Shown piece after piece: positions 42,117-54,925 of a stretch of DNA of 64,000 nucleotides. The notes beneath the pieces are model-generated. The model was not told the DNA's origin. It made no database searches and saw nothing but the letters and a program-made list of their open reading frames with translations. The stretch's first letter is position 1; each line of letters opens with the position of its first letter. The translations under genes were made by a program, and so were the position numbers. Source of the stretch: Pseudo-nitzschia pungens (lineage: Eukaryota; Bacillariophyta; Bacillariophyceae; Bacillariales; Bacillariaceae); assembly GCA_037355855.1 (NCBI GenBank), contig CM074768.1, positions 434,001 through 498,000 of the forward strand. Reading direction: 5' to 3'.

Positions 42117-42127
42117 GAATTCGAATA
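42117..42127. repeat. Target-site duplication, left copy
   Basis: GAATTCGAATA immediately precedes the element and is repeated exactly at 54915-54925. An 11-bp duplication is within the range produced by Mutator-like transposases. Confidence 0.95.
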
Positions 42128-42185
42128 GGACCTATAACAGTAAATAGTACTAATGGATTTGATTTTTACTTTAGTTCGGTACAAA
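42128..42185 (+). repeat. Left terminal inverted repeat of the MULE
   Basis: It is 58 bp long and identical to the reverse complement of 54857-54914. Weaker similarity (GCGATC, GACA, TACGATACTA) continues some 55 bp further in on both sides, so the functional end may be longer. Confidence 0.95.
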
Positions 42186-42595
42186 TCTGGACGGTTAAAT
42201 TTCGTGTACTAGCGATCAGACAAATACGATACTATGCAGCTTCCGTTTATCCATTTTCCGCCTCAACCGTGATTACGTGTACTTTATATCCGACACTGCA
42301 TGGGTTGTTTGTATTCATTTTTTACTTTCCAACAGTCTGTGGGCTTATATTTCCCCGTGTGGTATGTGTTTCCTAATTAAAAAGTTTCATGTATCGCCGA
42401 ATTGTATTAAATTTTTGCACACGTTAACTTTTATTTTCTTCCGTTATCTCCTCTTTTTCATGCTTCCCATTACTTATATTTTTCCGACGTATGTCATTGT
42501 CTATGCCATTGTGACATATTTAACACGTATTTTTTTCCGCTCGTTTCTTCACAATCCATCTATCTCGCAACTGTACACGACACACTTATCCCGCA
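42186..42595. promoter_or_regulatory. Subterminal region and presumed transposase promoter
   Basis: AT- and pyrimidine-rich leader between the TIR and the first ATG. No defined promoter element is recognised; the assignment is from position only. Confidence 0.4.
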
Positions 42596-45500
42596 ATGAC
42601 AACTATCAACCATGACGACGGTACCAACAACCCCGCACAAGACGATGGTAGCGGTACGGCTGGCAGTAAAAAAGCTAATACAGATGGCACTGTTTCTATT
42701 CGAAGCTGGCATCCAATGACACTTGAAGAGTATCGTCGAGCCCCGCCTCCCTTCTCCTCTACAACCTCTCATTTGGCAGAGGATTTGGCCTGTTATGGTT
42801 ATAACAGATGGGGTCTTTACATCGTTACAACCGGAAAAACAACTTATCGCAGAGACAGATTCACAAGACGTTTCAAGTGCAAATGTTGCGGTATTGAGAT
42901 CGTTGTTTCTTGTAAACATCCCGATAAAGAAGTTGACCCCTTGATGAATGGAAAAAATGCCAGTACAACTAAATGGTATCTTGTACCTATGGAAAGTGTT
43001 GATGAGTTGACCAAACTCCACGAACATGCTCTCAAAATTCTACCTATTATCGAGCGGCAGAATATTCTCGTTCATTTCCCGCCATTTCAGAAATATATCC
43101 GAGATAACGTTGCTATATATCCGGACAGCAAGCACTTGAAAACCTCCGTCATGTTCAAATGGCTTGCAGGGTCGCAGTTCAGGACTGTTAATCCAACGCC
43201 GGGAGTATTGTTGAGGCGGGCAAAATTGTCTGTGTACAAATATATACAAGAACTTTTACCCGGTCAGCATTTTACAACTTTATTCCACTGGATGCAAGCA
43301 TTAGCTGATGTCAATAAGGACATCACAGTTATGTTACAGTCCGACGATAAAGGTCGTTTCTATCGTTGCTTCACAGCGACACCAATGGCCAATCGACAAT
43401 ATTTTGGAACCCATACGACACCCGTTTTCGTTGGCGACTGTTTCCACTACAAGGAGAAAAACTATGATGGGGTTTGCTTCGTGTTGGTTACCAAAACCAT
43501 ATTCGGCGATACCCTGCCTCTTGCATGGGCAATAATCCCCCGGGAAAATAAATCACAGCTAGCTTGGGTGGTTCAGTGTTGTATAAAGCATGGTCTTGAG
43601 CTCGACAAACATGCTTTCGTCACCGACCAGGGACCACTCATACATACATTTGATGCATTCTTCAAACAGTTCCAAGTATCATTCCGGGTTACGTTATGCT
43701 TGCAACATCTCATACGATCCATTCGTGTTAAACACAAGACACTTTTCACGAACTATCGTCACGGGAAAAGCGACAATGCAAACAAACATAATGCTTGGGT
43801 GTTGCAGAGTCATCAGACATTGACTCGTCATATAATTGGTGCTTCCGATTCTATCTCCAGTGACTCATTTTTCGGTCACTTAATCGCACTTTTTTCCGAT
43901 ATACTGGACCTGAACGTGGGTAAAAGTAAGAAAGAGTGTGCCAGCTTGATTCTCTATATTATCCGGTATGACCCGAAACTCTGGACCGTATTGGGAAATT
44001 CGGAAAATTATAAGGAGGATCTTTTTATCTGCAATATGAAGACCTTCGCGGAACAATTCTATTTTTTGCAATATATTTATGATTTATTCGATGAAAGCGA
44101 CAATGTCACCCAAGCGTTGGTCAACACCGGCGTTTGTGAAGCAGCGACGTACGCATCTAATTTTCGGTATGTCAAGAGAGCCCCAATGCGGCGCCACGAG
44201 CGCACACCGAGAATGGGATTCAAGAGAACGAATTTAGCCGAGAGTGTCGCTGGGAAACTGCTTGCCAATGATGTACGAAATAAACTTCCCCATTCGACAA
44301 ACGTAGCCTTCGTCAATATGTATAATGAAGCTATCACAAAATTTTTGGCGAAACTCAACAACGACAATGGTTCATCTGTCCTATCATCTATCGGCCAACA
44401 AATTAATGTATTCAACAGCCAGGAAGGGAGCAATCACGATTTTACGTTACATGGAGTACCCAGTTTTGTGACAAATCATAATGGAAAAGATGGTATCAGA
44501 ATTACAATTCGCCGTGACGTCGATGAATGCACGCATCTGTTTGTGATGAAATGGAATCATCGGACAAGTTACCAAATGAGAAACGCTTTTTTATCCATGT
44601 GTGAAGAAGACATCTTGTGTGCACGTGATACACTGCGTCTTTCAACCACATGTCAGCTACATGTTGAATTTACACAGATGAGAAAGTCCATCTGCCCATG
44701 TTTTGAGATCGGACTTTCTGTTGCAAAGCGGCATCCCTGTTGGCCATTACCACAAACCATTCCTGTCACTGGAACAATCGAGTCGTTGGTTTACCACTCT
44801 TCTAGTCTGTCATCCTGCTCACGTAGTCTCTTCAAAAGGTCGAATTTGGATTACGATTTTGCCGATCCTTTTTCTTCTTCGACGAATTGTTTGGAAATTT
44901 ACGAACCCACAACAGTTGATACGAGGAATTTACATGCTCAACACCAGCTGAGTCCGCCTCCAAAGTATTCGAAGTCAACAAAATCCAAGGGAAAGCGTAT
45001 TACCTCTAACGGAGAATTAACCGCGTCTCCGTTTCGACCTGGTTATCGTCGAAAGAGTAAGAGGGAAGGTGGAGTTTTGTCTCCTCTAGCGAAAATCAAC
45101 CGACCATTCACTATTTCCAGGCAACGAAAACTTGACAAAACTCATAGACAATATCAACGTATCCAAAACGGAGTTCTAGAGGTCGACGGAATAGATCGGA
45201 TGAACCTGATCAGTGATGGCAAACAGAAAACCAAACACAATGTTGATAATTGTTCCGAGCCGAAGAATTTCGTGCCGTTATCGGAAATCATTCCAGGTGA
45301 ATATATCTTATACAGAATTAGCGATTTGGCGAGGCGGGAACCTTATACCCCCGACGAAGAAAACATTCCTGTAGATATGCCGCCAATAGAGCTGTGTGAC
45401 GACGATGATAACAGTATTTATTCTCCGAGCCGGAAAAAAATCCTTGGGCACGGTGTGAACCAAGACCAAATTGAAATTCTGAATGCGACTGTTGACTTCG

Positions 45501-45814
45501 GGGATGATGGAGAAATCTTCTTCCCGCAACAGGAGAGAAATCTCTCGTTTTCTTTGGGAGAAATAGTGGACAAATACATCGGAACACTTATTGATGGGGA
45601 TTTGTCAGATTATGTCTACTCGCTTGGATTATCTAGTGAAGATAATGGAGTTGGATGCCCATCGCCTGATACACCAAATAATGATCGCAGTTTGGGTCAA
45701 TATTTGGGTGTAAATCTTGGGGAGGAAAGCAAACATTTAACGAGAACCGATACTGGGCCACGCTGGAATTCACAAATGACGATTATAAAACACTGCTCGG
45801 GAACAACTGGTTGA
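42596..45814 (+). CDS. Mutator-like (MULE) transposase
   Basis: 1072 residues. An N-terminal zinc-knuckle-like part has C95-x-C97-C98, a KWYLV segment and H142-E-H144, similar to the WRKY/GCM1- or FLYWCH-type DNA-binding domains of MULE transposases. The RNase H-like catalytic core follows. D281 lies in VGDCFHYKEKNYDG, then LPLAWAIIPRENKSQLAW. D344 lies in AFVTDQGPLIHTFDAFF, and the C2H signature is C368-x2-H371 (CLQHLIRSI). The glutamate of the triad cannot be placed with certainty. The C-terminal third is hydrophilic, without the SWIM motif found in many MULE transposases. The ORF ends inside the start of the Ulp1 frame, which lies one base back. Ulp1-type residues (YKTLLGNNWLND) occur before the next ORF's ATG, so the two may make one protein by frameshifting, or one protein may have been broken. 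Confidence 0.93.
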   Translation: MTTINHDDGTNNPAQDDGSGTAGSKKANTDGTVSIRSWHPMTLEEYRRAPPPFSSTTSHLAEDLACYGYNRWGLYIVTTGKTTYRRDRFTRRFKCKCCGIEIVVSCKHPDKEVDPLMNGKNASTTKWYLVPMESVDELTKLHEHALKILPIIERQNILVHFPPFQKYIRDNVAIYPDSKHLKTSVMFKWLAGSQFRTVNPTPGVLLRRAKLSVYKYIQELLPGQHFTTLFHWMQALADVNKDITVMLQSDDKGRFYRCFTATPMANRQYFGTHTTPVFVGDCFHYKEKNYDGVCFVLVTKTIFGDTLPLAWAIIPRENKSQLAWVVQCCIKHGLELDKHAFVTDQGPLIHTFDAFFKQFQVSFRVTLCLQHLIRSIRVKHKTLFTNYRHGKSDNANKHNAWVLQSHQTLTRHIIGASDSISSDSFFGHLIALFSDILDLNVGKSKKECASLILYIIRYDPKLWTVLGNSENYKEDLFICNMKTFAEQFYFLQYIYDLFDESDNVTQALVNTGVCEAATYASNFRYVKRAPMRRHERTPRMGFKRTNLAESVAGKLLANDVRNKLPHSTNVAFVNMYNEAITKFLAKLNNDNGSSVLSSIGQQINVFNSQEGSNHDFTLHGVPSFVTNHNGKDGIRITIRRDVDECTHLFVMKWNHRTSYQMRNAFLSMCEEDILCARDTLRLSTTCQLHVEFTQMRKSICPCFEIGLSVAKRHPCWPLPQTIPVTGTIESLVYHSSSLSSCSRSLFKRSNLDYDFADPFSSSTNCLEIYEPTTVDTRNLHAQHQLSPPPKYSKSTKSKGKRITSNGELTASPFRPGYRRKSKREGGVLSPLAKINRPFTISRQRKLDKTHRQYQRIQNGVLEVDGIDRMNLISDGKQKTKHNVDNCSEPKNFVPLSEIIPGEYILYRISDLARREPYTPDEENIPVDMPPIELCDDDDNSIYSPSRKKILGHGVNQDQIEILNATVDFGDDGEIFFPQQERNLSFSLGEIVDKYIGTLIDGDLSDYVYSLGLSSEDNGVGCPSPDTPNNDRSLGQYLGVNLGEESKHLTRTDTGPRWNSQMTIIKHCSGTTG

Positions 45815-48021
45815 ATGATGTGGTGGTTGGTTTCTTTTGTCTTCTTATTTCCATTGGTGCACCAAAAGAAGTACACGTGTTCCTGCCGCAATTTTTCACT
45901 CAATTGCAAATACACCATGACATGAAATCACGACAAATGTTTGACGAAAAAAAAGCGCTAAAAGTCGATTTTATATACGACGATATAAGCCAGAAGAGAA
46001 TATTTGTAATTCCAGAGTGCGATAATTCTCATTGGAAACTCTTCTTTGGTTATGTAGAGAAAGACAAGACTCTGTCACTGATAGTAATTGACTCTCAAAA
46101 AGAATCCGGGGAACCCCCCAACTGTCAAGAACTGGAAATGTTGCGGTCGTATTTCACCGAACAGTATCCAGGAATAAAATACCGTGATAACGATCATCCA
46201 CACGAGGCTATAAATGAGATATTCAGTTCAGTTAGCAAACAGACCGACAGCCACAGTTGTGGAATATATATGTGCTACAATGCCCGCTGGATTGTTAAGC
46301 AAGCAGCTAATATAATACGGGTAGTAGATAACTACGAAAAACCGAAACCATCTACACACCCAAAACCGAAACCATCTACATATTTGTCGGAGGATGAACT
46401 TTCGTCGTCTGAGGGAGAATCAATGTCGGAGGCAGAATCGTTGTCGATAAATTATTTTGATTTTATGGATCAAGAAGACTTGGTCAGTGATTTTCGTGTT
46501 AACTTCACGAAATTTGCACAACTACTAAAAAAGGAACTACGTGGATACGACATAGGACATGACATCGGACACAAAAAATCGAAAAAGAGAATATTTGAGA
46601 GAAAACAAACAGTAGAACAAGAGGGAGAAAGCAAAGACACACCGAAATCCGGATGGCCGATTATGGAACAAAGGAAACGCGTTCGATCAGAAGAAGATAA
46701 CTCCGGGGGATTGACTACGGAACAAAAGAAACGGGTTCGATCAGAAGATGATAATTCAGATGGATCGAAAACGACTATGGAAGAAAATCAACCGAATCGT
46801 GAATTGTTGGAAGTGTCTATGATTCAGACACCGATAAAACAGACACAACAAGAAGAATCCGAAGACTCAAAGGATATAAAGGATATATCACCGGAAGAAT
46901 CTGGATCCGATGAAGATAATTCCGGGGGATTGACTACGGAACAAAAGAAACGGGTTCGATCAGAAGATGATAATTCAGATGGATCGAAAACGACTATGGA
47001 AGAAAATCAACCGAATCGTGAATTGTTGGAAGTGTCTATGATTCAGACACCGATAAAACAGACACAACAAGAAGAATCCGAAGACTCAAAGGATATAAAG
47101 GATATATCACCGGAAGAATCTGGATCCGATGAAGATAATTCCGGGGGATTGACTACGGAACAAAAGAAACGGGTTCGATCAGAAGATGATAATTCAGATG
47201 GATCGAAAACGACTATGGAAGAAAATCAACCGAATCGTGAATTGTTGGAAGTGTCTATGATTCAGACACCGATAAAACAGACACAACAAGAAGAATCCGA
47301 AGACTCAAAGGATATAAAGGATATATCACCGGAAGAATCTGGATCCGATGAAGATAATTCCGAGGGATTGACTACGGAAAAAAAGAAACACGTTGGATCA
47401 GATGAAGATAATTCCGAGGGATCGAGAACGACTACGGAAGAAAAAGAACCGAATGCTGAATTGTTGGAAGTGTCGATGATTCAGACACCGATAACACAGA
47501 CACAACAAGAAGAATCCGAAGACTCAAAGGATATAAAGGATATATCACCGGAAGAAACTGTTCGATCACAACCAAAGAAATTACAAACCATACTTAAACC
47601 GGAAGATTCCGTCAAATCAGTCCCATCAGAATCAGATGATTCACTGGATGAATTACCGATTCAATTTCCACGAAAAAACAAAAGAAATGTTCGATCACAA
47701 CTAAAGAAATTGCAAACCATTCTTAAACCGGAAGATTGCGTCAAATCAGTCCCATCAGAATCAGATGATTCACTGGATGAATTACCGATTCAATTTCCAC
47801 GAAAAAACAAAAGAAATCCAATACGGAACAGACGTATTAAGAAAGAATTGCCTCTTCAGAGAAAGAATCCTATGATATGCCCAAAAAACCAAAGTGGAAA
47901 AATACGAATGATTGATAGTCGGAATGAACCTGATTCGGTAGGGAAACAAGTAAAAGACGAACCACGTAGGTCGAAAAGAACAAAGAAAACGAAAACTGAT
48001 GTAATTTACGATTACAATTAG
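45811..48021 (+). CDS. Ulp1/SENP-like C48 cysteine protease with acidic tandem-repeat tail
   Basis: From the ATG at 45811 the ORF is 736 residues, overlapping the transposase stop by 4 bp in the -1 frame. The frame is open back to about 45682 and includes NNWLND, the usual entry of the C48 fold. The catalytic set is intact: H74 (DNSHWKLFFGY), D94 (LIVIDSQ), Q144 and C150 (KQTDSHSCGIYMC). After about residue 190 the protein is acidic and disordered, with three near-perfect 73-residue repeats plus a degenerate fourth, then two 43-residue repeats and a basic KRTKKTK end. C48 enzymes remove SUMO or related modifiers. For a transposon it could desumoylate transposase or silencing factors; that role is inference. 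Confidence 0.92.
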   Translation: MNDVVVGFFCLLISIGAPKEVHVFLPQFFTQLQIHHDMKSRQMFDEKKALKVDFIYDDISQKRIFVIPECDNSHWKLFFGYVEKDKTLSLIVIDSQKESGEPPNCQELEMLRSYFTEQYPGIKYRDNDHPHEAINEIFSSVSKQTDSHSCGIYMCYNARWIVKQAANIIRVVDNYEKPKPSTHPKPKPSTYLSEDELSSSEGESMSEAESLSINYFDFMDQEDLVSDFRVNFTKFAQLLKKELRGYDIGHDIGHKKSKKRIFERKQTVEQEGESKDTPKSGWPIMEQRKRVRSEEDNSGGLTTEQKKRVRSEDDNSDGSKTTMEENQPNRELLEVSMIQTPIKQTQQEESEDSKDIKDISPEESGSDEDNSGGLTTEQKKRVRSEDDNSDGSKTTMEENQPNRELLEVSMIQTPIKQTQQEESEDSKDIKDISPEESGSDEDNSGGLTTEQKKRVRSEDDNSDGSKTTMEENQPNRELLEVSMIQTPIKQTQQEESEDSKDIKDISPEESGSDEDNSEGLTTEKKKHVGSDEDNSEGSRTTTEEKEPNAELLEVSMIQTPITQTQQEESEDSKDIKDISPEETVRSQPKKLQTILKPEDSVKSVPSESDDSLDELPIQFPRKNKRNVRSQLKKLQTILKPEDCVKSVPSESDDSLDELPIQFPRKNKRNPIRNRRIKKELPLQRKNPMICPKNQSGKIRMIDSRNEPDSVGKQVKDEPRRSKRTKKTKTDVIYDYN
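46702..47577. repeat. 219-bp (73-codon) tandem repeats in the Ulp1 gene
   Basis: Copies start at 46702, 46921 and 47140 and are almost identical. A fourth from 47359 has diverged. The unit encodes Asp/Ser/Glu-rich sequence with SMIQTPIKQTQQEE and DSKDIKDISPEE. A 129-bp repeat (from 47560 and 47689) follows. Confidence 0.95.
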
Positions 48022-48091
48022 TAAGGATAAATTTCAATAATCTAATAGTAGTTTAATAAGATATCCGTCGGTATTTTATATTACTTCCTTA

Positions 48092-48610
48092 TTACTTCCT
48101 CTTTTTACTCCTCTTCTCTTCCCAGAATATTTTCCATTTGAGCGAACTTTCAAGTACGACCGGATCCTTCCTCGACTTCTCCGTTGCAGTGGCTATGTCG
48201 CGGTCTCGTACTCTCAATATTTCCGAAAATGAGGCAGGGTCCATATACGGACGTGGCTTTAACGAGTCATTCCGATCAACCTTTATCGTTCTCCGAATAT
48301 GAGATTTAACCACAGAATTTCTTTTACGCACATGTGACTTAACAGTAGTTGTAGTTAGTCGTGACGGATTTTCTTTGTTTGAAGAGACACCGGAACAATC
48401 TTTTCGTTGGAATATATCCTTCCATTTTTGTACAATCTCAGCTCTCTGTTCGATTATCATCTGTTGACGTATAGCTTCGTTCCATGATTCGTTTTCGTAA
48501 TTTCTATTACTGGAAAAACGTTTTTCCTTCTCGTTAGTTTCCATCTTATTTGTTTCGTGTTGGTTACTTGATGATTGAACCAAGGTTGGCATTGGCGTCA
48601 TCGGCGTCAT
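48092..48610 (-). CDS. Element-encoded basic hypothetical protein
   Basis: A 172-residue ORF starting at 48610, convergent with the Ulp1 gene. It is rich in Lys/Arg/Glu/Asn, with helices (NEAIRQQMIIEQRAEIVQKW), a Ser/Thr-Arg segment (VKSHVRKRNSVVKSHIRRT) and a strongly basic C-terminus (WEEKRSKKRK). No Cys/His cluster or known domain is seen. The composition suggests a nuclear nucleic-acid-binding or coiled-coil accessory protein, but this is a guess. An upstream ATG-rich start (MTPMTPMP) offers two other starts. Confidence 0.62.
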   Translation of the reverse strand: MTPMTPMPTLVQSSSNQHETNKMETNEKEKRFSSNRNYENESWNEAIRQQMIIEQRAEIVQKWKDIFQRKDCSGVSSNKENPSRLTTTTVKSHVRKRNSVVKSHIRRTIKVDRNDSLKPRPYMDPASFSEILRVRDRDIATATEKSRKDPVVLESSLKWKIFWEEKRSKKRK

Positions 48611-48679
48611 TGGCCCTGGGCTTCGGGATTATTACTGATCGAGGACAGATTTATGATAATAAAGGTAAATAATAAAAAC

Positions 48680-49200
48680 ATTCCAAATATTCGGGTTAGA
48701 TCATTAATTGAAATCAGATTCGAATCAAAAATTACTTTGGATCAGACTTTTTCTTCATTCGTGAATCACAATTTAACATACGATCAGACTATTCGTTAAA
48801 AATACAAGACAAAAAGTACTTGAGAACGGACATCCACTCGACTAATTCCTTCTTAATCGTGACTCAGAAATTACACAGGATCAGATTTTTGTTTATTTAT
48901 GAATCTAAAATTACTCGGGATCGAACACTCACACCGTTCACAAACAACCATATTACTTGGGATCGGACATTCACTCCATTCACGAACAATTATTACGTGA
49001 ATCTAAATATTACATGGGATCGGACTATTACTTGCTCGTGACTTAGAAATAACACAGGATCAGACTTTCGATTAGACCAAGCAACGTAAAAGTACTCGGG
49101 ATCGAACACTCACTAGATTCACAAACAACCATATTACTTGGGATCGGACATTCACTCCATTCACGAACAAACATCATTACTTGGCATTGTACATTCAATG
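48680..49200. repeat. Degenerate minisatellite with GGATCRGAC core
   Basis: About ten irregular copies of an AT-rich unit contain the core TTGGGATCGGACATTCACTC or close variants (GGATCAGACT, GGGATCGAACACTCAC), spaced about 30-70 bp apart. It lies in the gene-free middle of the transposon between two minus-strand genes. It may be a binding array or the promoter of the 48092-48610 gene. Confidence 0.8.
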
Positions 49201-49318
49201 AACTAACTACAGAAAAACTTAATCCGGGATAATTTTTTTTATTTAATTACGAAAAAATAATTGGATCAATTAGGAACAGAATCTTACCACCAGCTTCCGT
49301 TGGATAGGCAAACAAGAA

Positions 49319-50368
49319 TCAAATATGAATCGTTTTCCGTTTACGGTCAACCGGTCTCTCGTCAAATTCACTGTTTAGTCCCTTAAGTACACATAATGGT
49401 GGTTTTGGTTGCCCACACTCGTCTCCGAATACCAGTATTGCATAATTGGCGAGGTTGCACGCAAACTCTTTCTGCTTCTCTATTGCCCCTATGCTTTCTG
49501 ACGACGCTACAGAAAAAATTTTTTTTCCGTTCAACTCCCAGACACAGTAATCCTGGTTACAATGCCAACATTCCTTACGCACCTTGGGTAAAATGGAACG
49601 AAAATTTTTTTGTAACCCGATAATACTTTTGTCAATCTTTTCCTGACTTGTCGGAAAGAAATTTGTCAACCCAACTTCAGCTGAAATCCTTAACAACTGG
49701 TCCCGAATACGAGGCCAAAATGGGGATATTCTAGAATAGGTTGTAAGAAATTGGACGTCGACATCGAACATACGAGTAGGTCGATGTGTCGCAGTTGGCA
49801 CAACTTTTGCCAACCTCTTGTAACCGAGTTGAATGGCCGCAAAATCGTAAAAAAGGGAAAACCCACACTGCCCTGCTGTAATCTTTTTAGGAAAAATATC
49901 TCTATCGATCCGTCCGTAATGCTCCGGGCTTGTAAAAGAATTGATATTATTCACGTTCCAGACATAATCGCGATAAACAACCAACGAACCGACAGACAAA
50001 CGTCTTTCTGTCACTACGTCAGTTTTCCCAATAGAATACGTTGGCATGAATTTGTCCGACAAGATGATGGGTAGAGCTGTCAACAGATCATGTTGAGATA
50101 TAAAAAGTCGACAAACTGTTACTTTCTCAACAACCCGGTGAAACGCACTGTCATCCTCCGCGTAAATATACCACATTTTATGTTCCACGTCTGATGACTG
50201 GTTGTCTGGTAACAATCCGATAGTATCTGTTTCGGAATCGGGGAATTCTGTGAAATATCGAACAATCTGGACACCATTCTCGTCATCTCGATTATGATTC
50301 ATATGACAACTATCATCGTCGGAGTTATCAAGACAAAAGAAGTCAAAATTTGCTGCAGGAAACTTCAT
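49319..50368 (-). CDS. Element-encoded protein with ECWHCNQDYCVWE motif
   Basis: The ATG at 50368 gives 349 residues; the frame upstream has no ATG. The protein mixes hydrophobic and polar segments and ends basic (DRKRKTIHI). Near residue 265-310 is ECWHCNQDYCVWELNGKKI, followed by a helix and NYAILVFGDECGQPKPPLCVLKGL. The C-x2-C-x3-D-x-C-V-W core with a later Gly/Pro/Cys-Val segment recurs, as I recall, in uncharacterised diatom proteins, possibly because such elements are dispersed there. I know of no assigned function. The short upstream interval to the divergent 50953 gene suggests a shared promoter. Confidence 0.72.
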   Translation of the reverse strand: MKFPAANFDFFCLDNSDDDSCHMNHNRDDENGVQIVRYFTEFPDSETDTIGLLPDNQSSDVEHKMWYIYAEDDSAFHRVVEKVTVCRLFISQHDLLTALPIILSDKFMPTYSIGKTDVVTERRLSVGSLVVYRDYVWNVNNINSFTSPEHYGRIDRDIFPKKITAGQCGFSLFYDFAAIQLGYKRLAKVVPTATHRPTRMFDVDVQFLTTYSRISPFWPRIRDQLLRISAEVGLTNFFPTSQEKIDKSIIGLQKNFRSILPKVRKECWHCNQDYCVWELNGKKIFSVASSESIGAIEKQKEFACNLANYAILVFGDECGQPKPPLCVLKGLNSEFDERPVDRKRKTIHI

Positions 50369-50952
50369 TTTGAAGAATAAACTAAATTGTTGCACCAGAC
50401 AAATGAAAACACTGATGTACCGATTTTTATGATTTTTCACCGATTATCGTGCTACGGAAGTATTTATTCAAGTACACACTGCGCAGATAATTCATTGGAG
50501 TGCGTATATACCTATCCACGTGTTGGTCGGTGAAATCGATACAAGATTATTCGTGGATGCAAGAAACGATTGGTTCCCATTTCGAACACATAGGAAATGG
50601 TATATCCAAAATAAAACCGTTGGGATAGCTGGTCACGCGAATACCATGGCGCGCTTTTATGTAATACCGTTAGGATGGGTGGTCGCGCGAACAACATGGC
50701 GCGCTTTTGTTTACACGAACTCATTTCAAACCAAACCAAACCTGCAAAAATTTTCGGGTTTTAATAAAACCGATAGAACACTCCACAGTGGGCAAAGAGC
50801 AATCTGCCATCCCTTGCAATACAACAAGTAACAAAGTGTTCGAGAAACAACAACTAAAACAACGACGTCTATAATCACATAAAACCGAAAAAAAAGAAAT
50901 ACGGAGGAACCACATTTCGTAAAGAATAAAAACTCATTGCTCCAGTCCTAGC
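50369..50952. promoter_or_regulatory. Divergent promoter region inside the MULE with a ~45-bp duplication
   Basis: It separates divergent genes at 50368 (minus) and 50953 (plus). Two imperfect copies of GGTCRCGCGAAYAMCATGGCGCGCTTTT lie near 50630-50665 and 50676-50710, each preceded by an ACCGTTRGGAT-like word. Function as regulatory sites is inferred from position. Confidence 0.5.
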
Positions 50953-53391
50953 ATGTCCGATTCAACCGAGATTACATCTTCGGAAGAAGACAAAGAAGAG
51001 ATCGACGACACCAAAATAGAAGACCGAAGACTCAAAAGAAGAGTGGGAGCTGGCGTGAAACGAAAGCAGACCGATACTCAAATCAGAAGAACATCATCAC
51101 GTAGGAGATTGCGACCACAAAGACTTGGACAAAAGATCAGGCGAGAAGATAGCGATTCTGACTATAAAGACCAATCCAATAGCGAAGACGACGAAGAGAG
51201 TAGCAAGGACCAGGAGGCAACATTGACGGATTCAGAGGCAAATGTAGACCAAGCAGATCTCGTTATACCAGCGAAAGATATCAAACCTTCACGAAAAAAA
51301 TGTTCAGAAATCAGGAAGAAAATTTGTAATTTTTGTACAAATTGTTCCGGACAAAGAAATCAATGCGAACCATGCCCGAAGGATGAGAGATGCAAAACTT
51401 GCAACGGAAAAATGTGCTCATCGTGTTGTGAAGGATGGGTATCCGGACATTTAGAACAGCGAAATTGTTTTTTTGTTCTAGGGATTGGCGACGATGGCGG
51501 TCATTCGGAAATCAAAAACCGAGTTGCAGATTCGTGTAATCGTTGCAAGGAAAAAAAAATAAAATGTGAATTGTGCGACACGGTAAATTGCAAATGTAAA
51601 GGACGCATGTGTAAGAATTGCTGCACTACCTTCGAAAGGGGAACAACAGTTCAATGTGTTTTCTCGCTGAATATGAAAAGAGGACCGAAAGGGAAGAAAG
51701 ATGATCCGAAATCGAAAGATGACGAAGATCAAGATCCTTTGCTGAATATGAAAAGAGGATCGAAAGTGAAGAAAGATGATCCGAAATCGAAAGATGACGA
51801 AGATCAAGATCCTTTAAATCTACTACCCACAGATGATCATTGTCAACTCAACCAATTGCAGGAGAAAAGGAGAAAAATGACACGAATGTTGGAAAAATTA
51901 AAGCGAAGACAACAAGAGTATAATATGTTTAATAAGGAAGTAATGGAAATGGAACAACAATTCGAAGAAATTTTAAGTCCAACCCCAAAGATACTTAACA
52001 ACCTTGCAACTAAAACGCAACAAAGATCGCTGGGTAGCTCATCGAAAAGGAAGCGTGTCGGACAAAACAATTCAAGTGAAGCAACCAAAAGTATGGCTAA
52101 CGAGTTGATGGAAACGCCACCACCGAAATCGGTCAATAAAGACGAGAGTATAGGGGGCGAGCATTCCCACAGACAAAAACACTCAAGTCAAAGAAACAAT
52201 AATCCGGGTAACAACTTGATGAAAAAGTCGCCACCAACCTCGGCGAATAACAAGGACAGTAAGAGAGACATGGGTACCGATCGACAAAACGACTCAAGTC
52301 AAAGAAACAATAATCCGGGTAACAACTTGATGAAAAAGTCGCCACCAACCTCGGCGAATAACAAGGAAAGTAAGAGAGACATGGGTACCAATCGACAAAA
52401 CGACTCAAGTCAAAGAAACAATAATCCGGGTAACAACTTGATGAAAAAGTCGCCACCAACCTCGGCGAATAACAAGGAAAGTAAGAGAGACATGGGTACC
52501 AATCGACAAAACGACTCAAGTCAAAGAAACAATAATCCGGGTAACAACTTGATGAAAAGGTCGTCGCCACCAAACTCGGCGAATAACACGGACAGTAAGA
52601 GAGACATGGGTACCAATCGACAAAACGACTCAAGTCAAAGAAACAATAATCCGGGTAACAACTTGATGAAAAGGTCGTCGCCACCAAACTCGGCGAATCG
52701 TGACGCAGGGATTGGGGGCAGGAATACCAACAGAGAAAACGACATAATTCAAGGAACCAACGGATCATATCAAAGAAACAATATCCCGGGTACCGACTCC
52801 ACAAAGAACCAGCCACCAAAATCGGCGAATAGTGACGCAAGTACTGGGGCCAGGAATACCAACGGAGAAAACGACATAATTCAAGGAACCAACGGATCAA
52901 GTAACGGAAACAATATTCTGCGTACCGACTACACAAATTACCCGCGAGCAAAATCGGCGAATCGGGACGAGAGTAATAGGGACGAGCGTACCGACAGACA
53001 AAAAAAACATGGTGAACAAGGCAGAATCTCCGATTCAGGTAGCGAGGTGATTACAAAATCCAACCATAGCAAGACAGGCAACCCTACCAACGAAGAAATT
53101 CCATATTCCAATGAGAGTAGAGGTGGCAAGAAAACAGAAAACTATGACAGTTTAGAGGACGATGTGAATGAAAAGCGTACCAACAAAGAAAAGAACGACA
53201 ATGAAGCAGCTTCGGGTAAAGCCAGATCTGGAATCACTTTTGATACGGTCGGAAAAACAACTATCACCGTCCAATCGCAGACACCAAATGGCAAGTTTAA
53301 AAAGAAGGTAGATTTGGAAATTGAGATTCCAGATGAATTCGAAACATGGGAATACACCATCAAGTTCCAAAAAGATAAAGAACATGGGTGA
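50953..53391 (+). CDS. Element-encoded Cys-rich protein with tandem 37-residue repeats
   Basis: 812 residues in one exon. The start is acidic/basic and nuclear-like (KRRVGAGVKRKQ; SSRRRLRPQRL). A Cys-rich block at about residues 118-235 has at least 20 Cys in closely spaced pairs (ICNFCTNCSGQRNQCEPC; CKTCNGKMCSSCC; DSCNRCKEKKIKCELC; CKCKGRMCKNCC). It suggests several zinc clusters, one resembling the Cys spacing of fungal Zn2Cys6 domains. A duplicated NMKRGxKxKKDDPKSKDDED segment and a coiled coil (LEKLKRRQQEYNMFNKEVME) follow, then five tandem 37-38-residue Asn/Ser/Pro-rich repeats. The C-terminus looks folded (GITFDTVGKTTITVQSQTPN ... IEIPDEFETWEYTIKF). Probably a nuclear DNA-binding accessory factor; this is inference. 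Confidence 0.78.
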   Translation: MSDSTEITSSEEDKEEIDDTKIEDRRLKRRVGAGVKRKQTDTQIRRTSSRRRLRPQRLGQKIRREDSDSDYKDQSNSEDDEESSKDQEATLTDSEANVDQADLVIPAKDIKPSRKKCSEIRKKICNFCTNCSGQRNQCEPCPKDERCKTCNGKMCSSCCEGWVSGHLEQRNCFFVLGIGDDGGHSEIKNRVADSCNRCKEKKIKCELCDTVNCKCKGRMCKNCCTTFERGTTVQCVFSLNMKRGPKGKKDDPKSKDDEDQDPLLNMKRGSKVKKDDPKSKDDEDQDPLNLLPTDDHCQLNQLQEKRRKMTRMLEKLKRRQQEYNMFNKEVMEMEQQFEEILSPTPKILNNLATKTQQRSLGSSSKRKRVGQNNSSEATKSMANELMETPPPKSVNKDESIGGEHSHRQKHSSQRNNNPGNNLMKKSPPTSANNKDSKRDMGTDRQNDSSQRNNNPGNNLMKKSPPTSANNKESKRDMGTNRQNDSSQRNNNPGNNLMKKSPPTSANNKESKRDMGTNRQNDSSQRNNNPGNNLMKRSSPPNSANNTDSKRDMGTNRQNDSSQRNNNPGNNLMKRSSPPNSANRDAGIGGRNTNRENDIIQGTNGSYQRNNIPGTDSTKNQPPKSANSDASTGARNTNGENDIIQGTNGSSNGNNILRTDYTNYPRAKSANRDESNRDERTDRQKKHGEQGRISDSGSEVITKSNHSKTGNPTNEEIPYSNESRGGKKTENYDSLEDDVNEKRTNKEKNDNEAASGKARSGITFDTVGKTTITVQSQTPNGKFKKKVDLEIEIPDEFETWEYTIKFQKDKEHG
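52184..52741. repeat. 111-bp (37-codon) tandem repeats in the Cys-rich gene
   Basis: Copies begin at 52184, 52295, 52406, 52517 and 52631. The fourth is 114 bp, with one extra codon. They encode SSQRNNNPGNNLMKKSPPTS followed by an Asn/Lys/Asp segment and are near identical, so the array is young. A second repeat type (ITNRENDIIQGTNGS-like) follows to about 52920. Confidence 0.93.
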
Positions 53392-53620
53392 ACTGTCTTA
53401 CCTAAAGTCGACCGAAAAAGAAAAGAAAAAAAATAACCGGAACATTATCGCAGACAAACAGACCGGCAAAACTACAAGAAGCCCCCGAAAACCGGTAATT
53501 GAGGATCAAGTTGAAAGAAGAAATTTGAACACGCGGGTGATCGATGCAACCAAAGCATTACACAAAAATGGAAAAATCGCCGAAGAAAAAAAAAAATCAA
53601 AGTGCAAGTATTGGTATTAA
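53384..53620 (+). CDS. Possible small basic ORF overlapping the Cys-rich gene's stop
   Basis: The ATG at 53384 overlaps the stop of the preceding gene (ATGGGTGA) and opens 78 residues rich in Lys/Arg/Glu/Asn, ending KSKCKYWY. It could be a termination-reinitiation ORF, the old C-terminus of the preceding protein after a frameshift, or chance. No domain is seen. Confidence 0.35.
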   Translation: MGELSYLKSTEKEKKKNNRNIIADKQTGKTTRSPRKPVIEDQVERRNLNTRVIDATKALHKNGKIAEEKKKSKCKYWY

Positions 53621-53657
53621 AAATAGTGAAACGAAATAAAATAGTGATAAAAATATA

Positions 53658-54540
53658 TTAAACTGAAAAAGAGGAATCATCATTGTGCGACCTCGGTGGT
53701 GGTGAGGGTGGTACAACATGACATTTTGTTGTCGACGTATCATGGGGAGGAGGAACACGATGATCTCCCCGGTAAAATTTGACTTTTGGAGTGGATCGAG
53801 AAGAAGTAGGAGGAGACAGCTTCGTAGACGACGAAACGGTAGACCGTTGATGTCGTCCTCGGTGTCCATTAAACAGTAGAACCGACGACATATTTCGATA
53901 CTTGCCCACCCAACCGGAAAAAATTGGAGACCAATGAGAGGCACAAAAAGGACAATTGACAGACCCGAGAAGAGATGTGTGAAAATGGTGAAATGAAGAG
54001 TAACACTTGTTACATAGGAACATCGGAGAATTGATAGTTGATTTTTCACAGTAAACACATGGTTTTCGAAGAAGAGAATTGCACATAGTAGACGTTTCAG
54101 TGTCAAGTAATCGTAGAGATTGATGTTTTTCGAGGCGACTCATGATTGTGAATGACGAAAGAGAGTATTCACCAGGGGAGAGTGAAAAGCCGACGTCGAT
54201 GAGCAAAAATAACACATGTTTACAGGTGGGAACAGGAGAAACTCCGGATTGAAAATCCGGACAAGAACAGATAATGGAAGACGTTGATATCACGACACTG
54301 TAGACGTTGCCGGTAGATCCCAAAACTTGAATGACAGAAGACGATGAGTTCACCCGATACGGTAAAATGTAAAAAATCTGTGTCTTAGCCAGCCACAACC
54401 GTCTCGACTGGACAAATATAGTGACTGGTAGGTGCGGTGGAAGATAAACAAAAAGAGATGTTTGAGATATCAAGGGAAATAAGGACAGCAAAAACAGAGT
54501 TGAACTTACCCCGTGACGGAGAATTGACCGAGGACATCAT
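53658..54540 (-). CDS. SWIM zinc-finger plus RING protein (ZSWIM2/MEX-like putative E3 ligase)
   Basis: Two exons, 54540-54510 and 54424-53658, spliced across an 85-bp intron (GTAAGT / CCAG), give 265 residues. After RRLWLAKTQIFYILPYR comes VLGSTGNVYSVVI and the SWIM finger C63-x-C65 ... C78-x-H80 (CSCPDF ... CKHVLFLLIDVGF). The RING-like domain follows: C133-x2-C136, C148-x2-C151, H156-H159 region, C168-x2-C171 (CPFC). A Ser/Pro/His-rich tail ends the protein. This SWIM-then-RING order and the LGSTGNVY phrase match the ZSWIM2/MEX type of ubiquitin ligase. In MULEs a SWIM motif is often part of the transposase; here it is separate and fused to RING. It may modify the transposase or host silencing factors (inference). 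Confidence 0.88.
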
Positions 54541-54856
54541 GGCATTGACATCATAGCGTTGTAATAATCTTATCGAAATTAATGGGCTAAGAGGGTAAGA
54601 GGGTAGCATTTTTTATGCAAAAGATGCAAACACAAAGAGGCAGACGCTGGAAAAATAAATAAAAACAATATGGTAATTAGGATAAAGACATAAATATTCG
54701 TGCCGGTTATTGAATACGACACCACAGTTAACATAAAGTTAAGCAATATTTTATGGCAGTTAACAGGACATAAGCAATGCCCAATGGAAAGTAATTCTGC
54801 TGACGAGTAGTATCGTAAATGTCCGATCGCAGGTATGCGTTCTATATTCGCCGAAT
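54541..54856. other. Right subterminal region of the MULE
   Basis: Noncoding, between the SWIM-RING start and the right TIR. It probably contains the promoter of that gene. No sequence element is recognised beyond the weak TIR extension. Confidence 0.45.
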
Positions 54857-54914
54857 TTTGTACCGAACTAAAGTAAAAATCAAATCCATTAGTACTATTT
54901 ACTGTTATAGGTCC
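54857..54914 (-). repeat. Right terminal inverted repeat of the MULE
   Basis: Exact reverse complement of 42128-42185, ending ...TTACTGTTATAGGTCC. Confidence 0.95.
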
Positions 54915-54925
54915 GAATTCGAATA
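54915..54925. repeat. Target-site duplication, right copy
   Basis: GAATTCGAATA, identical to 42117-42127. Removing the element and one copy would restore the pre-insertion locus. Confidence 0.95.

Follow-up and report, generated by a model that had tools for sequence, protein, structure and literature searches.

We describe a large Mutator-like element (MULE) in a 64-kb stretch of the genome of the diatom Pseudo-nitzschia pungens (C11:434001-498000, hereafter the window). The assembly searched comprises 66.9 Mb in 28 contigs, and other copies are named by contig (C10, C12 and so on). The window copy is a recently inserted, internally deleted derivative of a larger transposon. Its family is an autonomous-type, five-gene, 15.6-15.7-kb Mutator-like transposon made up of a giant gene and genes 3, 4, 5 and 6. 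Complete copies encode, as predicted from their open frames, one protein in which a MULE transposase is followed by a cysteine-rich (Cys-rich) middle region and, at the C-terminus, an Ulp1/C48 protease. A sequence-only reading had described the locus as an intact element with six genes, transposase and Ulp1 among them as separate genes; what looked like a tidy six-gene element is here corrected to a deletion derivative.

The element and its ends

The features that define the element and its main gene are as follows.

42117..42127, no strand: target-site duplication (TSD), left copy, GAATTCGAATA, exact 11 bp
42128..42185, + strand: left terminal inverted repeat (TIR), 58 bp, perfect; a weaker inverted repeat extends to 42234
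42596..45814, + strand: 5' part of the giant gene; open reading frame (ORF) of 1072 aa, native residues 1-1051 followed by an out-of-frame tail
45735..45739, no strand: deletion junction with 5-bp ATTTA microhomology; 3,271 bp of the C10 and C12 copies are gone
45740..48021, + strand: 3' remnant of the giant gene, comprising the Ulp1/C48 catalytic domain (about 45760-46287) and, at the C-terminus, a charged tail rich in repeats
54857..54914, - strand: right TIR, 58 bp, perfect
54915..54925, no strand: TSD, right copy, GAATTCGAATA, exact 11 bp

The two TIRs are identical at 58 of 58 positions, within a 107-bp inverted repeat at 84% identity, and the same 11 bp stand on both sides, as the sequence-only reading had it. 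The G+C content is 0.41 within the element (42128-54914) and 0.50 in the remainder of the window. TIRs are usual, but not universal, in Mutator-like elements. The reported range of MULE TSDs is 8-11 bp (PMC6446971; this and the other papers are cited for what their accessible excerpts state). Because exact TSDs of 10-11 bp occur at 14 of the 15 TIR pairs found across the genome, the pairing of TIRs and TSDs is not due to chance. TIRs, a TSD of 8-11 bp and the D-D-E and CxxH residues were each found in this element, which is a real Mutator-like element with a divergent MULE-type transposase.

The giant transposase-Ulp1 protein

In the C10 and C12 copies, the transposase, the Ulp1 part and the repeat-rich tail share a single open frame; it has 2,776 codons and, counted from the first ATG, encodes 2,752 aa. 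The same single frame, of 2,770-2,806 codons, is present in five of seven copies of a sister subfamily. The six ORFs first described are all present among the 19 mechanical ORFs of at least 90 aa, two of them being the halves of this one gene, so that the real set is five. A third family, with 37-38% amino acid identity, has open frames of 1,168, 1,759 and 1,991 codons in which the middle region aligns. The single-frame fusion holds for two subfamilies, the third family not included.

D281, D344, E549 and C368/H371 are invariant in all four aligned transposases; we take these to be the MULE catalytic D/D/E and CxxH positions, and the D/D and C2H motifs read from the window alone are borne out. 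The MULE profile PF10551 matches all four, always weakly (best E value 0.0015). In the Ulp1 half, PF02902 scores 27.3 bits against a cut-off of 20.7, and alignment with yeast Ulp1 (1euv, E = 3.5e-8) places the H, D, Q and C catalytic residues opposite each other, in agreement with the set already recognized by eye. By profile and residues, the C-terminal part is a putative Ulp1/C48-type protease, with SUMO cleavage as its predicted activity.

Protein searches with the transposase returned only two matches at E <= 0.001, and a transposase profile gave the same two: Psemu1/9560 (46% identity over 27% of the query; 596 aa) and the ENA protein P0001 (36% over 71%; 766 aa). The former is presumably a Pseudo-nitzschia multiseries gene model. 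Among 3943 candidate proteins of 0.55-1.75 times its length, no relative of residues 1-2430 of the giant protein was found. Viral contigs gave no match for the transposase or for gene 4. A profile search placed the Cys-rich middle region in no family above cut-off. We also considered this region as a second Ulp1-like (pseudo-protease) domain and rejected it (profile comparison of 5 and 4 sequences, Prob 0.1, E = 0.62).

The domains lie apart, with stretches of low conservation between them. At the end of the transposase part, about residues 822-831, stands the sequence KREGGV(L/D)SPL, which is conserved in the three families aligned and not in P0001. It could be a nuclear-localization signal or a Gly-Gly cleavage site.

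Internal deletion of the window copy

Aligned with the C12 and C10 copies, the window copy stays in register up to 45739 and then jumps by 3,271 bp, and ATTTA stands at both break points of the loss. The three copies measure 12.8 kb (window), 15.6 kb (C12) and 15.7 kb (C10). Since sibling and sister-type copies keep the full frame, the missing 3,271 bp are ancestral and the loss occurred in the window copy, where the Ulp1 half is now out of frame with the start of the giant gene. The claim of an intact element is withdrawn on these grounds. This copy would be unable to make the full giant protein; having kept both ends, it should still move in trans.

Over the first 3.6 kb, the window copy differs from each sibling by 2 mismatches in 3,612 bp, a near-identity by which the family looks recently active. 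Further 3', the long alignments show about 0.6-1.9% difference, some of it through tandem repeats, in contrast with the near-identical first 3.6 kb. This patchy divergence from C10 and C12 may reflect recombination or gene conversion among copies.

Copies, gene content and selection

A genome search with the 85-base left end gave at least 40 scored places (53 candidates), of which 30 were paired into fifteen elements; five of the other ten, all unpaired, are sister-type left ends. The fifteen pairs consist of three full-size elements (window, C12 and C10) and twelve members of a short family of about 1 kb, so that other TIR-bounded copies do exist. The single pair without an exact TSD is C3:4746272-4748229. 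Short elements align with the C10 copy only at their ends, over 94-168 bp on the left and 68-94 bp on the right (E <= 1e-5); one of them, C10:1827797-1829564, has other sequence in its middle.

Two TIR pairs, of 12.1 kb on C3 and 6.9 kb on C2, were considered as cases of Pack-MULE capture of host genes and rejected, as they hold nested retroelements instead. The short element C3:5862029-5874109 is enlarged by an element resembling non-long-terminal-repeat retroelements, with frames of 2019 and 1057 codons, and C2:6205005-6211898 by a gag-pol retroelement with a frame of 1545 codons (both classes assigned by eye).

Co-occurrence of the genes was followed in ten copies with a transposase match of at least 78% (three of the window subfamily and seven sister-type), the other genes being sought up to 30 kb downstream. 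Genes 4, 5 and 6 were retained, whole or in part, in all ten, and the Ulp1 part and gene 3 in nine, so that the accessory genes travel together. The exception, C7:3735165, has lost gene 3 together with the Ulp1 half, and part of its gene 4 is left. Decay is visible elsewhere: gene 4 is split over 6 kb in the C2:5062 copy and carries a TGA in C12, the C2:5182 copy extends over a far longer stretch, and decayed fragments lacking a transposase are present at C1:7046-7096 kb and C12:1915-1918 kb. Gene order and strand in the sister copy on C3 are those of the window: giant (+), 3 (-), 4 (-), 5 (+) and 6 (-).

The ratio of nonsynonymous to synonymous substitution rates (dN/dS) between the window subfamily and its sister was computed with the C10 giant gene and window genes 3-6 on one side and, on the other, the sister giant gene from C6 (minus a short middle stretch) and the C3 accessory genes. 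Values were 0.18 and 0.37 for the 5' and 3' parts of the giant gene, 0.21 for gene 3, 0.22 for gene 4, 0.27 for gene 5 and 0.28 for gene 6; they are rough, as dS is 0.88-1.58, and 2.87 in gene 5. The same aligned blocks read in two shifted frames gave 0.98-1.69; for gene 6 exon 2 the ratio is 0.27 in frame versus 1.69 and 1.51 shifted. Because purifying selection is frame-specific, all the genes are maintained and are not passengers.

The GATCRGAC motif at the ends and in an internal array

A short motif, which the sequence-only reading had not mentioned, is shared by the ends and the interior of the element.

42214..42221, + strand: inner TIR motif of the left end, GATCAGAC, at a distance of 87 bp
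48729..49199, one orientation: degenerate tandem array, with a repeat of about 42 bp, between genes 3 and 4, with 6 exact GATCRGAC, or 8 counting GATCRRAC
54821..54828, - strand: inner TIR motif of the right end, GATCGGAC, at a distance of 87 bp

In 27 of the 30 ends of the fifteen pairs, the distance of GATCRGAC from the end is exactly 87 bp; in one further end it is 92, and two ends lack the motif there. At the left end of the C3 sister copy the distance is equal, with the end taken from the left-end search, and the sequence recurs at four further sister left ends. Between the motif and the outer 58 bp, left and right ends do not agree in sequence, so that the TIR looks bipartite. Genome-wide, ACTWGCGATCRGAC gave 40 matches versus none for a reversed control pattern, and 33 of these fall at ends listed by the left-end search; of the remaining seven, three are accounted for by position, as mates of listed ends or as sites in front of a sister transposase, and no place is assigned to the other four. 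The window holds 13 GATCRGAC where 5.4 are expected, a count that none of 100 shuffles reached.

The array stands at the same place in the sister subfamily. In the window it has six exact motifs in 711 bp (against a mean of 0.06 and a maximum of 2 in 5,000 first-order resamples), and in the C3 sister copy 12 in 578 bp (mean 0.04, maximum 2). Arrays of GATCRGAC were present in eight of nine copies examined, the core being changed in the ninth, with six motifs in each of three copies of the window subfamily and 9, 10, 11, 12 and 12, mostly 41 bp apart, in five sister copies. The coding sequence of the C10 giant gene contains a single GATCRGAC. As to position, the giant gene is preceded at about 375 bp by the left motif, and gene 6 at about 280 bp by the right motif; the array sits immediately upstream of gene 3.

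Other repeats were seen in related loci. Left ends of the third family start alike and have, by eye, about four subterminal repeats resembling ACGCAAATAGGGTAA; at locus L062, other tandem repeats lie near its Ulp1 part.

Comparison with known elements

Ulp1 domains recur in unrelated DNA transposons. An Ulp1 domain at the C-terminus of the transposase is known for Ginger1, the Ulp1 and PHD domains of Ginger1 and Mutator transposases have been aligned, and Mutators carrying Ulp1 are named for hydra, lancelet and plants (PMC2836005). The diatom element resembles these animal elements in being a DNA transposon with a C-terminal Ulp1 on its transposase (there sometimes plus PHD). Compared by description only, it is unlike them in its protein of 2,752 aa with a long Cys-rich middle, its four further genes and its array of a TIR motif (PMC2836005).

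In plants, Ulp1 is found downstream of the transposase ORF in either orientation (PMC2528002), and KIU genes combine VANC with Ulp1 (PMC13317346). Arabidopsis KI-MULEs and KIU-carrying VANDALs are, like the diatom element, multi-gene MULEs with an Ulp1 domain (PMC13317346). VANDALs share with it arrays of short motifs in one orientation in noncoding DNA, which diverge between subfamilies (PMC5735166, PMC10398659), and the VANDAL system also has an accessory protein with variable tandem peptide repeats, here gene 5 (PMC13317346, PMC5735166, PMC10398659). In contrast, KI-MULEs are non-TIR elements (PMC2528002) and the diatom element has perfect TIRs; their Ulp1 is reverse to mudrA (PMC2528002) or on a VANC gene (PMC13317346), whereas here it is fused to the transposase. 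The array motif GATCRGAC also differs from the VANC target YAGTATTAY. By analogy, the diatom element may work in the manner of the VANC system; identity with it is not claimed.

Among stramenopile elements, MULE-Diatoms (group 37, PMC6446971) likewise has a MULE transposase and a listed SWIM finger; its entry there gives one ORF and TIRs of 123-124 bp, and on the TSD it reads 'No TSD and not indicated'. Compared by description only, the present family is unlike group 37 in having five genes, the SWIM motif on a separate gene, perfect TIRs of 58 bp and TSDs of 10-11 bp. An expansion of MULEs has been reported in Nitzschia inconspicua (PMC8329260). Among the papers listed by our searches, with Repbase reports and subscription papers outside their range, none was found in its accessible parts to describe such a gene set or array from diatoms. 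To that extent, the family is new in its combination of features.

Accessory genes

The remaining features of the element are listed below.

48092..48610, - strand: gene 3, 172 aa, no known family
49319..50440, - strand: gene 4, ORF of 373 aa from GTG, no known family; a conserved Met at residue 25 puts the start perhaps at 50368
50612..50711, no strand: pair of 50-bp direct repeats (82%) containing GGCGCGC, between the divergently oriented genes 4 and 5
50953..53391, + strand: gene 5, 812 aa, two Cys-rich clusters and variable tandem peptide repeats
53658..54424, - strand: gene 6 exon 2
54510..54540, - strand: gene 6 exon 1

Gene 3 matched no Pfam family, nor did gene 4, for which no PDB match was better than E = 0.12. 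GGCGCGC was not found in the intergenic region between genes 4 and 5 of the sister C3 copy. The second Cys cluster of gene 5 opens with CNRCKEKKIKC, and a C-terminal segment is similar in the sister; a profile search of gene 5 gave no family above cut-off.

Gene 6 would splice cleanly, as had been proposed, through an 85-nt GTAAGT...CAG intron (54425-54509), with a predicted product of 265 aa. This protein has a SWIM motif (CxC...CxH), the residues of which are identical in the sister protein, and a second zinc-finger-like motif, C4H2C2. PF04434 scored 16.6 bits against a cut-off of 19.6 and matched only one of the two members. Nearest to the second finger are models of PHD (E = 0.04), ZZ, SNAPC3 and RING, all below cut-off. 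RING profiles remained below their cut-offs as well (zf-C3HC4_3, E = 4.8 in the window and 1.2 in the sister; zf-rbx1, 0.097 in the sister), and none of the three PDB matches of gene 6 is a RING. The description of a large MULE with an Ulp1-type protease and Cys-rich factors thus stands, while the label of a RING-type ubiquitin ligase for gene 6 is unsupported by these profiles. A gene 6 relative (31%) lies about 6 kb downstream of the C8 copy of the third family; another, at C2:2245632, has no listed transposase alongside.

A proposed mechanism and its alternatives

We read the locus as a deleted derivative of a five-gene fusion MULE, with an element protein that would bind the motif and a transposase-borne protease that would remove SUMO; for this reading as a whole we estimate a probability of about 0.6. 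A DNA-binding protein encoded by the element would recognize GATCRGAC in both settings, 87 bp inside each end and within the array that separates genes 3 and 4. As part of the transposase, the protease would be delivered wherever the transposase sits, and there it could take SUMO, or a modifier related to it, off proteins that, left modified, would inhibit or silence the element or its repair. The effect would be relief of silencing or of inhibition of transposition. The window copy, like the elements of about 1 kb, would be mobilized in trans by other copies.

Several observations weigh against this reading. The window copy scores 16.9 bits with PF10551, the curated cut-off being 27.6, which leaves the transposase a divergent MULE. 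In the third family, Ulp1 was not seen in one frame with the transposase (a weak match near one copy, E = 1.2e-4, has one TGA), and the three transposase loci examined there contained no GATCRGAC. Of the 13 motifs in the window, one falls within coding sequence and four beyond the borders of the element, and the short elements are mutually related, so that their ends are not independent. Finally, in the sister-type copy at C2:5159-5195 kb the array core is GATCGGT(C/A), with nine GATCGG and no GATCRGAC (5163.8-5164.2 kb).

A more specific proposal is that diatom MULEs, independently of plant VANDALs, evolved a sequence-specific anti-silencing system in which an element protein bound to GATCRGAC at the ends and in the array would recruit the transposase-tethered SUMO protease, and this would lift SUMO-dependent silencing from the element and from the short elements related to it. 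Gene 5 would be the best candidate for this binder, or else the Cys-rich middle of the giant protein. The idea gains some weight, by analogy, from the motif shared between TIRs and array; we nevertheless regard it as a long shot.

The strongest alternative is that GATCRGAC and the array are ordinary transposase-binding or promoter sites, that is, a bipartite TIR serving transposition and an array regulating gene 3 or 4, with no anti-silencing. Geneless elements keep the motif at position 87, as a transposition site would, motifs and array are positioned shortly before the giant gene, gene 6 and gene 3, and the long TIRs of Mutator carry transposase-binding sites and promoters (PMC3310237). However, 9-12 exact tandem copies, in a number that varies among copies of the element, exceed what a simple promoter needs, and the array resembles VANC targets, which are tandem repeats in noncoding regions (PMC5735166). 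We consider that this alternative falls just short of an even chance; it is compatible with the fusion reading.

Alternatively, Ulp1 might be a processing protease, by which a 2,752-aa polyprotein cuts itself into transposase, Cys-rich middle and protease. Ulp1 enzymes cleave after Gly-Gly, which the conserved KREGGV(L/D)SPL at the end of the transposase part would offer, and the giant size and the poorly conserved stretches between domains fit such a product. Since the best solved relatives of the domain are SUMO proteases, and the conserved sequence is equally explicable as a nuclear-localization signal, we think self-cleavage unlikely.

An assembly error at the deletion, with a real locus of full length, is improbable: the near-identity of the three copies over their first 3.6 kb can mislead assemblers, but a 5-bp microhomology marks the junction, and both of its sides extend to element ends where the TSD matches. 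The reading of six separate genes in an intact element, among them an Ulp1 gene and a SWIM-RING ubiquitin ligase, is hardly credible despite the six ORFs, perfect TIRs and TSD, given the fused frame in sibling and sister copies, the 3,271 bp missing from the window and the lack of any RING profile above cut-off.

Under the fusion reading, the protease belongs physically to the transposase and is kept by selection in subfamilies that have diverged; four conserved accessory genes and a motif common to TIRs and array accompany it. Such an arrangement may help the element to evade control by its host. The role of Ulp1 in plant KIU elements is described as unknown (PMC13317346). As a single small diatom genome holds complete copies next to decayed and short ones, a role for SUMO proteases in transposons becomes testable with defined proteins and DNA sites.

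Silicon transporters in the host genome

The diatom host is corroborated by matches to the silicon-transporter family, with eleven stretches above the curated cut-off (best E = 4e-232); one of 14 control genomes responded, and none did so above the cut-off. At C3:7803825-7808126, four such matches lie side by side in one frame of 1696 codons, which suggests a fused tandem silicon transporter.

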